Below, piece after piece: positions 12,047 through 23,171 of a stretch of DNA of 37,556 bases. Position 1 is the first letter of the stretch; each line of letters starts with the position of its first letter. The DNA comes from Actinomycetota bacterium (GTDB lineage Bacteria; Actinomycetota; Actinomycetes; Nanopelagicales; Nanopelagicaceae): the NCBI GenBank assembly GCA_010031635.1, contig RGZI01000008.1, positions 1-37,556 on the forward strand, in the 5' to 3' direction. Under the pieces are notes generated by a model. The model made no database searches, was not told the DNA's origin, and saw only the letters and a list, made by a program, of their open reading frames with translations. A program made the translations under genes and the position numbers.

Positions 12047-13313
12047 AGAGTCTGTAGAACAATCAGAGGTAGTTGAGTTACCACTTCGTGATCAGCCCGT
12101 TGCAGGGATGTCTGAGTTAATTACCGATTTAACGGGGTTAAAAAATGCATGTGCTCAATTAGCAAAAGGTACCGGTCCGATAGCGATCGATGCTGAACGG
12201 GCTTCGGGTTACAAATATTCGCAACGCGCATATTTAATTCAGGTTCACCGTAAAGATGGTGGCTTGCATCTGATCGATCCGATTCCATTTAAATTAGAAG
12301 ATTTTGCGCCAATGAATGAGATATTACAAAGCTGCGAAACAATTATTCACGCGAGCACTCAAGATCTTCCTTGTCTGCGCGAGATTGGCTTAAACCCAAC
12401 CACATTATTTGATACCGAACTTGGTGCCCGAATTGCTGGAATGGCCAAAGTTGGTCTTGGTCCATTAACCGAAGAGTTGTTGGGCTTTCGTTTAGCAAAA
12501 GAACATTCAGCCGTTGATTGGTCAATCCGACCATTGCAACAAGATTGGTTAATTTACGCAGCCCTTGATGTTGATGTGCTTCTTGATTTAAGAGATGCGG
12601 TGGAAGCAAAATTAATTGAGAACAAGAAGTTAGCGTGGGTTAATGAAGAGTTTGCCGCCATATTGGCATCCCCTACTCCTACACCTAAAACTGATCGATG
12701 GAAAAAAACTTCAGGTATCCACAAAGTTAAGCGTCCGGATCAACTTGCAATTGTCCGCGAACTTTGGCGGGTTCGTGACGAGATTGGACGCGAGAAAGAT
12801 ATTGCGGGCGGGCGGATCTTAAGTGAATATGCGATTGTTGCTGCTGCGGCAACAGTGCCAAAAAATATTAATGAGTTAAAAGGAATCTCGGCATTCACTC
12901 GCCAGCCGCCAGAGTTGTTAAAAAAATGGTGGGATGCAATTGCAATCGCTAGCGCTAATCCAGAGTTGAAAATTAAAGGACCACCAAGTGATGCTCCCCC
13001 AACGCAGATGCGCGTTTGGCGAGAGCGCGAACCTGTGGCTTATGCTCGGCTAACGCATGCCAAAGCTAGGTTGAAAGAAGTCGCTGCAGCCAATTCGATT
13101 CCGGTTGAAAATATGGCCTCCCCTGATCTAGTCCGAAAATTGTGTTGGTACGCACCGTTGCCAGATTTAGCCCAGGTCGAAGCGGCGTTGGTCAAAGCTG
13201 GGGCTCGAAAGTGGCAAATTGACTTAATTGGGCCGACGCTGGCCGCAATCCAATCTGAGACGGAGCCAGTACTCATTCCAGCCGATGAGGGTGAGCCTGC
13301 TGTATCGGAGTGA
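12012..13313 (+). CDS. rnd: RNase D (3'-5' exoribonuclease, HRDC domain)
   Basis: 433 aa. The DEDDy exonuclease domain (about 35-210) has Asp60 and Glu62 in AIDAERASG, the HASTQDLPCL Asp, FDTELGARI, and the YAALD motif with its Tyr and Asp. The HRDC domain follows around 235-310 (ELWRVRDEIGREKDI...), and a further C-terminal helical part extends to the end, as in actinobacterial RNase D. It trims tRNA and other small RNA 3' ends in the cytoplasm. ATG 12012 lies inside the DUF3000 gene; a TTG at 12027 is an alternative. The N-terminal 30 residues are acidic and probably disordered. Confidence 0.92.
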   Translation: MESHQLPEIVPEESVEQSEVVELPLRDQPVAGMSELITDLTGLKNACAQLAKGTGPIAIDAERASGYKYSQRAYLIQVHRKDGGLHLIDPIPFKLEDFAPMNEILQSCETIIHASTQDLPCLREIGLNPTTLFDTELGARIAGMAKVGLGPLTEELLGFRLAKEHSAVDWSIRPLQQDWLIYAALDVDVLLDLRDAVEAKLIENKKLAWVNEEFAAILASPTPTPKTDRWKKTSGIHKVKRPDQLAIVRELWRVRDEIGREKDIAGGRILSEYAIVAAAATVPKNINELKGISAFTRQPPELLKKWWDAIAIASANPELKIKGPPSDAPPTQMRVWREREPVAYARLTHAKARLKEVAAANSIPVENMASPDLVRKLCWYAPLPDLAQVEAALVKAGARKWQIDLIGPTLAAIQSETEPVLIPADEGEPAVSE

Positions 13314-19562: not shown

Positions 19563-22229
19563 TTACTTTCCGCTCGGCAGAAGAGATCTGAGCACGTACT
19601 GCATGATGCCGCCATGACGGTAGTAATCGGCTTCACCTGGGGTATCAATTCGCACCCGCGCGCGGAAGGATTTATCCCCGTAAGAAACAGTCACCTCTCG
19701 AGGTGTGCTTCCCGAATTGAGTTCCTCAATACCGGTAATCGAAAAGAGTTCATCACCAGATAAGTTTAATGATTGCGCACTTTGACCTTCAAGATATTGA
19801 AGTGGCAGCACTCCCATGCCAATCAAATTTGAACGATGGATCCGTTCATAAGATTGCGCAATTACCGCTTTCACACCAAGAAGTGCTGTTCCTTTTGCAG
19901 CCCAGTCACGAGATGATCCTGAGCCATACTCTTTACCAGCAAGAATCACTAGTGGTACGCCACTGCTTTGATACTGCATTGATGCATCATAAATTGTGGC
20001 TTGCTCGCCACCACTCAAGTAATTCCGAGTGAAACCACCTTCAACACCATCTAGTAATTCATTTTTCAATCGAATATTTGCGAAAGTTCCCCGAATCATT
20101 ACTTCGTGATTTCCACGTCGTGATCCATATGAATTGAAATCTTTGCGATCAACGCCATGCTCGGCCAAATATTTACCGGCAGGAGAATCTGCTTTAATAT
20201 TTCCGGCAGGTGAGATGTGATCTGTTGTTACTGAGTCTCCTAGTTTTGCTAATACGCGGGCATTCTTAATGTCTTTAACTGGAACCGGATTTCGCGGCAT
20301 TCCTTCAAAGTAAGGAGGTTTGCGGACATAAGTTGAATCAGCATCCCATGCAAAAGTTTTTCCAATGGGGGTATCAAGTGCTTTCCAACGATGATCGCCA
20401 TCAAAAACTCCAGCGTAATCTTTAGTAAACATTGCTGAGGTAATTGATGATTCCACAACGGCAGCGATCTCTTGAGCTGATGGCCAAATATCTCGTAAGA
20501 AAATTGGTGCACCATTGGCATCATTGCCAAGTGAATCTTTCTCAAAATCATGATTCATGGTTCCTGCAAGTGCGTATGCAACAACAAGAGGAGGTGAGGC
20601 TAAGTAGTTCATCTTTACATCGGGACTAATCCGGCCTTCAAAGTTTCGATTACCTGACAACACAGCCGCAACTGCTAAATCCTGCTCATTAACGGCTTTG
20701 CTAATTTCTACTGGGAGTGGTCCTGAGTTTCCAATGCAGGTGACGCATCCATAACCAACCAAGTTAAACCCAAGTTTTTCCATGTATGGCATTAACCCGG
20801 CGCGCTCGTAGTAATCCATGACAACTTTTGAACCTGGAGCAAGAGTTGTTTTCACCCAAGGTTTTGAAGTTAATCCTTTTTCAACTGCTTTTTTGGCTAG
20901 TAGTGCTGCACCAAGCATTACAGATGGATTAGAAGTGTTTGTGCAGGATGTAATTGATGCGATAACTACATCGCCATTTTTAATTGTGGTGGCTTTCCCA
21001 TTTACTCCCACTGCAATTGGAGCTTTCCCAGTTTTTTCGGTGAAGTATGTCGGAAGTACCTTGGCAAACTCGGTTTTTGAATCAGTGAGTGAGATTCGAT
21101 CTTGCGGACGTTTTGGACCAGCGATGGATGGAACAACGGTTCCTAAATCAAGTTCGACAACTTCAGAGAAACGTGGTTCAACTGAAGGGTCATGCCACAG
21201 ACCTTGCAACTTCGCATAAGTTGAAATCAATTCGACTTGGCTTTCACTGCGACCCGTTAATCGCATGTAGCGCAAGGTCTCTTCATCAATTGGGAAGATC
21301 GCACATGTTGATCCGTACTCAGGACTCATATTTCCAATAGTGGCCCGATTTGCCATTGGAATTTCCGCGACACCTGGACCGTAAAACTCGACAAACTTTC
21401 CGACAACTCCATGTTTGCGCAATATCTGGGTAATTGTTAGTGCCAAATCTGTTGCAGTTGTTCCGGTTGGCAATTTTCCAGTTAACTTAAATCCGACAAC
21501 TCTTGGAATCAACATTGATACTGGCTGGCCAAGCAAAGCCGCTTCGGCTTCAATTCCGCCAACTCCCCAACCAAGCACACCTAAACCATTAACCATGGTG
21601 GTGTGTGAATCAGTACCAACAACGGTATCTGGATAGGCCCGCAATACTCCAGAAACATTTCTGGTCATAACTACCCTTGCTAAAAATTCAATATTTACTT
21701 GGTGGACAATTCCAGTGCCAGGTGGCACAACTTTGAATTCATCAAAAGCACCTTGCCCCCAACGCAAGAAACGGTAACGCTCGCGATTACGCTCATATTC
21801 AACATCGGTATTTTGTTCAAAAGAGGTATTAGTTCCAAAAAAATCTGCAATCACTGAATGATCAATAACTAACTCAGCTGGTGCGAGTGGATTTACTTTT
21901 GATGGGTCTCCCCCAAGTTCTACAATCGCCTCACGCATAGTCGCTAAATCAACGACACAAGGGACGCCGGTAAAATCTTGCATTATTACTCGAGCGGGAG
22001 TGAATTGAATTTCAGTTTCAACATCTGCGGTTGGATTCCACGCAGCAAGTGCTTTGATCTGTTCAGCGGTGATATTTGCACCATCTTCATGGCGCAAAAG
22101 ATTCTCAAGCAAGATTTTTAAGCTAAACGGCAGATTGTTAGCACCGGCAACTCGAGTGATGTCAAAGATTTCATAATCAGTTGCATTTACCTTTAATACG
22201 CTCTTGCTATTTAATGAATCTTTGCTCAT
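19563..22229 (-). CDS. acnA: Aconitate hydratase A
   Basis: 888 aa, close to E. coli AcnA. The three [4Fe-4S] cysteines are seen in [10 protein letters not shown] and [32 protein letters not shown] near the N-terminus and the swivel-domain [14 protein letters not shown] are intact. It isomerises citrate and isocitrate through cis-aconitate in the TCA cycle. GGAAGG lies 7 nt before ATG 22229. An 18-bp perfect palindrome lies 17 nt upstream of the start and overlaps the stop of the preceding methyltransferase gene, suggesting specific control of acnA even though the genes are only 27 nt apart. Confidence 0.96.
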
Positions 22230-22246
22230 TTCGCGCCTTCCAAATC

Positions 22247-22264
22247 TATCTTGATATCAAGATA
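22247..22264. promoter_or_regulatory. 18-bp perfect palindrome upstream of acnA, likely operator
   Basis: TATCTTGATATCAAGATA reads identically on both strands. It lies between the methyltransferase stop (22257-22259, inside the palindrome) and the acnA Shine-Dalgarno sequence. A TAGATT box on the minus strand (22243-22248) overlaps its edge and could be the acnA -10. Symmetry and length fit a MarR- or TetR-type dimer site. Confidence 0.75.
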
Positions 22265-23171
22265 TTACCGGAATATAGGTAGCAATGCACTCGACGTGAG
22301 CGGTCATCGGAAAGGCATCAAAAGCTGCAATAGAGCTTAATTTGTACCCGACATCAGCAAGGTAGGCGGTATCTCGAGCCAAAGAGGCTGGATCGCAAGA
22401 GACATAACAGATTGCTCGCGGAGCTAATTTAGCCATCTGTATCACCACGTCATTGCCAGCGCCGGCGCGCGGCGGGTCAAGCACAATCAAATCTACTTTG
22501 TTTAAACGCGGTAAATATTTTGCGACATCACCCTGATGAATCGTTACTGCGCCAGTATTTGCAAAATTAACTTTCGCATCCTTAATTGCACTCGCTCCGG
22601 TTTCAATTAATTGGACAGTGCACCCACGGGCAGCAAGTGGTTTTGCAAACAAGCCAACTCCACCATACAAATCAAGAGCGATATCACCAGCCTTTGGGTC
22701 CAGTTCAGAAAGAACACGAGCAATAAAAACTTCAGGGGCTTTTTTATTTCCTTGCCAAAAACTGTCGATACTTACTTGGTACTCAAATTTCTCCCCATTA
22801 ACTTCCACAACTTCACTTTGCAGCATTGGACCTTCAGCAACTCGAACTATTTCGTTTTTCTCAAGTACAACTGATCTATCCCCCGTGGAAGAAGTTAGTA
22901 CTTCTACACGATCTTGTGATGCCCATCTTTGTTTGGTAACTTCTGGAAGATCTAATGCGGGTGCGGCGATTAAACAATCATCAATTGCATAAAGCTCATG
23001 TGATCTTGCTCCAAGAAAACCAACTTCGCCATCTTTCCCGACGTGCATTGAGATTCTGGTCCGATATCCAAGACCATCTTCAACTCCATCAATCGATAAT
23101 GCTTGCACCTCTACATCCAGATCCATCTTCGCTAAGCGCGCAAACTGCTCTTTAATAATTCCTTTTGCCAA
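22257..23171 (-). CDS. TrmA/RumA-type RNA uracil-5-methyltransferase, lacking TRAM domain
   Basis: 304 aa from TTG 23171, the only in-frame start below an upstream stop. The SAM-binding DLYGGVGLFA (167-176), LDPPRAGAG (231-239), catalytic Cys259 in YVSCDP and general-base Glu294 in AHVECIATY are all present, so the methyltransferase core is complete. Usual family members are 100 or more residues longer, with an N-terminal TRAM domain and a four-Cys Fe-S cluster; both are missing here. The leaderless-looking ATG at 23190 is out of frame and stops after 12 codons, so a small indel near the start is possible. The target (tRNA or rRNA uridine) cannot be told. M. tuberculosis Rv2689c is the positional counterpart. 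Confidence 0.85.
   Translation of the reverse strand: MAKGIIKEQFARLAKMDLDVEVQALSIDGVEDGLGYRTRISMHVGKDGEVGFLGARSHELYAIDDCLIAAPALDLPEVTKQRWASQDRVEVLTSSTGDRSVVLEKNEIVRVAEGPMLQSEVVEVNGEKFEYQVSIDSFWQGNKKAPEVFIARVLSELDPKAGDIALDLYGGVGLFAKPLAARGCTVQLIETGASAIKDAKVNFANTGAVTIHQGDVAKYLPRLNKVDLIVLDPPRAGAGNDVVIQMAKLAPRAICYVSCDPASLARDTAYLADVGYKLSSIAAFDAFPMTAHVECIATYIPVIS

Follow-up and report, generated by a model that had tools for sequence, protein, structure and literature searches.

The window analysed here, the whole stretch of 37,556 nucleotides, carries the gene acnA on the minus strand (19563–22229). The encoded aconitate hydratase AcnA is 888 amino acids long, matches PF00330 and PF00694, and lies above the cut-offs of TIGR01341 and NF006757, consistent with its identification as the AcnA equivalog. 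Upstream of acnA and running in the same direction is an open reading frame for an RNA (uracil-5) methyltransferase of RlmD/TrmA type (22257–23171, minus strand), which is above the cut-off for PF05958 and below that for TIGR00479. A trans-aconitate methyltransferase (Tam) was considered for this gene and ruled out: the PF05958 match identifies it as a 23S rRNA/tRNA uracil-5 methyltransferase, and the neighbour of acnA is therefore not Tam. An RNA methyltransferase gene is found upstream of acnA in all 30 loci from the host family, whether or not the genome also encodes the MarR-family regulator TamR, which is described below.

Between the two genes lies TATCTTGATATCAAGATA, a perfect 18-bp palindrome (22247–22264), which we describe below as the operator of acnA, and which is predicted to be the site of a TamR dimer. 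The stop codon of the methyltransferase (TGA, 22257–22259) is inside the palindrome, and the acnA start codon (ATG, at 22229 on the minus strand) begins 17 bp beyond its edge, preceded by the candidate ribosome-binding site GGAAGG (22236–22241, minus strand). The original prediction had placed a perfect palindrome between the methyltransferase and acnA and over the methyltransferase stop, and both its coordinates and its sequence are confirmed. No other perfect palindrome in the window is as long, the runners-up reaching 14 bp. When the whole window was shuffled with dinucleotide composition preserved, palindromes of at least 18 bp occurred at a mean of 0.21 per shuffled window and were present in 35 of 200 shuffles, so that one such palindrome anywhere within 37.5 kb is not remarkable. 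For a given 27-bp gap the same procedure gives an expectation of about 1.5e-4, in agreement with the earlier claim that chance was an unlikely origin in so short a gap.

The assembly of the host (G000) comprises 1.64 Mb in 224 contigs and is 85% complete. Throughout this assembly there is only one other match within three mismatches of TATCTTGATATCAAGATA, namely TCTCTTGATATCAAGATA at G000:C159:37773–37790, which differs from it at one position. Expressed as the pattern CTTGANNTCAAG, the site occurs twice in the 1.64 Mb, before acnA, where it matches the 16-position operator at 16/16, and before mdh, where it matches at 15/16. TCTCTTGATATCAAGATA is located 12 bp ahead of the mdh start codon, and mdh is then followed by icd (locus L002); both genomic sites therefore precede genes of the TCA cycle. 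The original prediction had associated the palindrome with this cycle, proposed a search for a second copy near other genes of the cycle, and regarded the lack of one as evidence against the idea; the copy before mdh–icd bears out the association. The genes folD and icd flank mdh in 26 of 30 mdh loci, in TamR-bearing and TamR-lacking genomes alike; two of the four exceptions have no icd and two have no folD within the available sequence, some of them being cut by contig ends. We note that a small DUF3017-like gene, just under the Pfam cut-off, is found between folD and mdh (L002:1522–1761, minus strand), and that its stop codon overlaps the candidate −10 element of mdh.

Candidate regulators in the genome were taken from the matches to PF12802. 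One of these is a MarR protein of 165 amino acids, encoded on a different contig from acnA (L005:1336–1833, minus strand; G000:C113:34100–34600). The solved chains most similar to it, 8ylf and 8ylh, are MarR proteins of like length. It is 57–59% identical to the MarR regulators encoded divergently to tam in G041, G043, G044, G052, and G054, and shares invariant residues with the tam-divergent regulators over its full length. In these relatives, which belong to other families of the class, the TamR gene is divergent to a gene scoring as trans-aconitate 2-methyltransferase (NF010703, above the cut-off for L019), and a TATCTTGANNTCAAGATA-type site is found in the tam–tamR spacer. A profile of the tam-divergent TamR proteins was used to find 80 named loci of Streptomyces/Kitasatospora type. 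All 80 have a divergent tam, and in each of them the tam–tamR spacer holds a site matching at 12/16 or better, no more than 200 bp from tamR. Comparison with TamR sites had been suggested at the outset, and genomic sequence from all 80 loci places the palindrome in the same class. On the basis of the tam-divergent relatives, their spacer sites, and the Streptomyces loci, we conclude that the protein is a TamR orthologue and assign the palindrome to the TamR class of operators.

In the genus of the window, tamR has as its neighbours a tetR gene, glmU, and a gene of the enolase superfamily; it is directly behind the tetR gene and adjoins glmU. The tetR gene (L005:1840–2484, minus strand; G000:C113) has FasR as its best NCBIfam match, below the cut-off. 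A TetR gene is also found before tamR in some other genera, and adjoins tam–tamR in the class relative G055.

We then compared the occurrence of the site with that of TamR in 60 family and class genomes, using a protein search to identify TamR and scoring the best-matching site ahead of acnA and of mdh. Of the genomes with TamR, 27/27 have a site of at least 13/16 upstream of acnA, compared with 1/27 of those without it; the match is at least 14/16 in all 27 of the former, and the sole match among the latter (G016) is 13/16. Upstream of mdh, a site of at least 13/16 occurs in all 22 TamR-bearing genomes, and in none of 23 TamR-lacking genomes, where the best match is at most 11/16. Fisher tests give 3e-14 for acnA and 2e-13 for mdh, for genomes that share ancestry and are not independent. 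On the AcnA tree, eight changes in TamR presence are needed, and the acnA site goes along with them; two to three changes are needed within the 37 family genomes drawn first. Well-supported branches supply 4 independent pairs; the acnA site follows TamR in about 3.9 of them and changes in the opposite direction in none, a number of pairs with which a sign test by itself cannot reach significance. The original prediction had named a lack of conservation upstream of acnA among the results that would refute it; instead, every TamR-bearing relative tested has the site. Among the class relatives, G054 has a second aconitase-family gene (G054:C1:7163366), which has no upstream operator, whereas its main acnA has one.

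A wider set of 151 family genomes gave a similar result: at least two sites with no more than one mismatch are found in 43 of the 45 genomes with TamR and in three of the 106 without. Two of these three, G152 and G164, are 84–86% complete and belong to a genus with TamR; both have perfect acnA sites and no detected TamR. The sites without a detected TamR in G016, G152, and G164 are most simply explained as assembly gaps or remnants. The third exception, G161, is due to an unrelated repeated sequence: two copies of the palindrome-like GCTCTTGAACTCAAGAGA lie away from acnA on a single contig of this TamR-lacking genome (G161:C17:3059–3076 and 13132–13149), and the sequence is possibly a repeat or the site of another regulator.

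Within the host family, all 14 TamR-bearing genomes that were scanned contain exactly two sites with up to one mismatch, at acnA and mdh, and all six TamR-lacking genomes scanned contain none. A search at E ≤ 1e-15 found no tam in any of 37 family genomes. The tamR gene of the family is not divergent to tam and adjoins glmU, with or without a tetR gene, and there is no operator above background near tamR in the family genomes, the best matches within about 1.5 kb being 11–12/16. G037, from another family, is intermediate: it has no tam, yet a 12/16 site still precedes tamR. Given the absence of tam and of a site near tamR, the regulon of this family, as read from the genome sequences, has apparently shrunk to acnA plus mdh–icd. 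We suggest as the order of events that tam was lost and tamR came to lie in a new neighbourhood, and that the autoregulatory site was then lost, with acnA and mdh–icd retained; tamR could still be autoregulated through other sequences.

Further TamR targets were also sought at sites with two mismatches, of which there are four in G000. Sites of this class occur in control sequences and in TamR-lacking genomes as well, and they are therefore not credited as targets. A loose 14-bp scan allowing two mismatches proved too noisy for defining a regulon. The TamR-bearing genome G095 has two extra operator-like sequences, CATCTTGATATCAAGATA, at G095:C1:810774–810791 and 811860–811877, about 1.1 kb apart and not at acnA, which may represent an additional target or a duplication.

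It is conceivable, though improbable, that the palindrome is bound by a different regulator of similar recognition, such as another MarR protein, PecS-like or not, or the product of the tetR gene before tamR, with TamR being lost together with it as part of one module. The position of that FasR-like gene in the genus of the window fits such a reading, as does the very similar palindrome TATCTTTATATTAAGATA that is recognised by PecS in Vibrio vulnificus (PMC6391409). However, no TetR gene is found beside tamR in several TamR-bearing genera that keep the site (G007, G019, G022, G030, and G033), and no second MarR protein of PecS-like type was found among the PF12802 matches of the genome, the remainder of which resemble LexA, IclR, Crp, and a Suf-type regulator on inspection of their sequences. 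The recurrence of the site in the tam–tamR spacer of distant relatives, which is the usual position for autoregulation by a MarR protein, also argues for TamR.

We regard it as highly improbable that the palindrome acts instead as an RNA or DNA hairpin (an attenuator, terminator, or processing site), as might be suggested by its location between two co-directional genes, where it overlaps the stop codon of the upstream one. Without a spacer, a self-complementary 18-mer makes a poor hairpin, a scan at the palindrome identified no terminator-like site, and variants that preserve the structure while changing the sequence are not seen in relatives. Moreover, it is the sequence itself, beyond the structure alone, that recurs before mdh and in the tam–tamR spacers, and the site vanishes along with TamR while the gene order is unchanged. 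A functionless chance palindrome, of the kind held by a minority of the shuffled windows, is already refuted by the comparative data, namely the conservation of the exact sequence across genera, the further copy before an operon of related function, and the near-perfect coupling of site to TamR. The palindrome is thus very probably a TamR-type operator, as judged by sequence comparison. The original prediction had guessed at a site for TamR, and this guess is supported by the conservation, the copy at mdh–icd, the sites in the tam–tamR spacers, and the TamR orthologue in the genome.

The candidate −10 element of acnA (22259–22267, minus strand) is either TAATAT (22267–22262) or TATCTT (22264–22259). 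It overlaps the half of the operator farther from acnA, and transcription would start inside the operator. Among family members with TamR, the promoter-side edge of the operator coincides with the end of a TANNNT element in 13/17 acnA loci and 16/17 mdh loci, compared with about 5% for control placements; the other four acnA loci lack the element there. A consensus scan identified no sigma-70 promoter at the palindrome, which counts against this placement. In TamR-lacking genomes TANNNT is found exactly 6 nt before the acnA start codon in 11/19, other spacings averaging 0.4 hits, and from this spacing acnA appears to be transcribed leaderless in many of these relatives. The element at the leaderless spacing resembles TAGGAT or TAAGAT (for example in L084, L086, L092, L095, and L130). 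For mdh, most genomes, with or without TamR, have a TANNNT where the preceding reading frame ends or close by. The leaderless spacing would place +1 inside the operator at both acnA and mdh.

The candidate −10 element is also consistent with what remains of the operator once the regulator has gone. TATCTTGA is retained in relatives that have lost TamR, and decayed acnA operators with an intact left half are found in five TamR-lacking genomes of one genus, in which the presence of TamR varies. These are TATCTTGACGCTCAAGAA (G089, G125, and G167), in which one inserted base separates the half-sites, and the otherwise damaged TATCTTGAGCGCTGGTCA (G074) and TATCTTGACCCT, which is directly before the ATG (G149). 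Retention of the left half with decay of the right is expected if the left half doubles as a −10 region. This suggests that −10 and +1 of the promoters both lie under the operator, a placement that makes steric repression likely. We therefore consider it most likely that a TamR dimer over −10/+1 represses transcription sterically and that citrate or trans-aconitate relieves the block.

The binding and repression that we infer would proceed as follows. A TamR dimer on TATCTTGATATCAAGATA would cover −10/+1 of the acnA promoter and block transcription, and the same protein at the site before mdh would repress mdh–icd. If the protein behaves like TamR of Streptomyces, it would be freed by citrate or trans-aconitate, which accumulate on damage to the iron–sulphur cluster of aconitase or when flux is stalled, so that aconitase, malate dehydrogenase, and isocitrate dehydrogenase would rise together. 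We have a high degree of confidence in the core of this reading, in which a MarR repressor of TamR type has the palindrome as its operator and controls acnA and mdh–icd, within a system reduced by the loss of tam and of the operator at tamR. We also favour, with more reserve, a broader reading: that the TamR system of this small-genome family has been pared down to a TCA switch of two operons, with tam and the autoregulatory site gone and one operator class lying over the promoter start; that the acnA operator decays to its promoter half after loss of tamR; and that, without Tam, citrate or trans-aconitate may be a steady signal of flux rather than an alarm for oxidative damage.

A search of the available literature found no earlier account of the operator motif in the host lineage. 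Streamlined aquatic actinobacteria keep few regulators, and if the proposal is true, one of those retained here is a repressor dedicated to the TCA cycle, with two operons as its targets, which would constitute a concrete and testable circuit. It would also provide a pattern for the shrinkage of a regulon, in which the partner gene and the feedback go first, the core metabolic targets persist longest, and operator remnants outlast the regulator. A single operator consensus would then predict TamR targets across the class.

In Streptomyces, mdh and idh are also targets of TamR, and the regulon includes aceB. Corynebacterium has an aconitase repressor of TetR type, AcnR, which acts at the aconitase promoter and differs from TamR in both protein family and operator. 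The system most similar to that of the host is the TamR regulon of Streptomyces coelicolor, which has an orthologous MarR protein and an aconitase target (Huang & Grove 2013; Huang et al. 2015; via PMC5487221). Streptomyces TamR acts as a repressor of aconitase, and citrate and trans-aconitate release it (PMC5487221). The palindrome class is common to both, judged on the tam–tamR spacer sequences of named Streptomyces. In contrast to Streptomyces, the host family lacks tam, a divergent arrangement of tamR with tam, and an operator near tamR; the Streptomyces regulon takes in tamR and tam, whereas that of the host family appears limited to acnA and mdh–icd. The urate-responsive MarR subfamily of PecS, MftR, and HucR resembles TamR in consisting of MarR proteins that act on 18-bp palindromes, and the V. 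vulnificus PecS palindrome is near-identical to the host operator in the outer half-sites (PMC6391409). No pecM-type neighbour is found at the tamR locus in the genus of the window. PecS, by comparison, is encoded divergently to pecM and has urate or xanthine as its ligands, whereas TamR responds to citrate and related compounds, and not to urate (PMC6391409).
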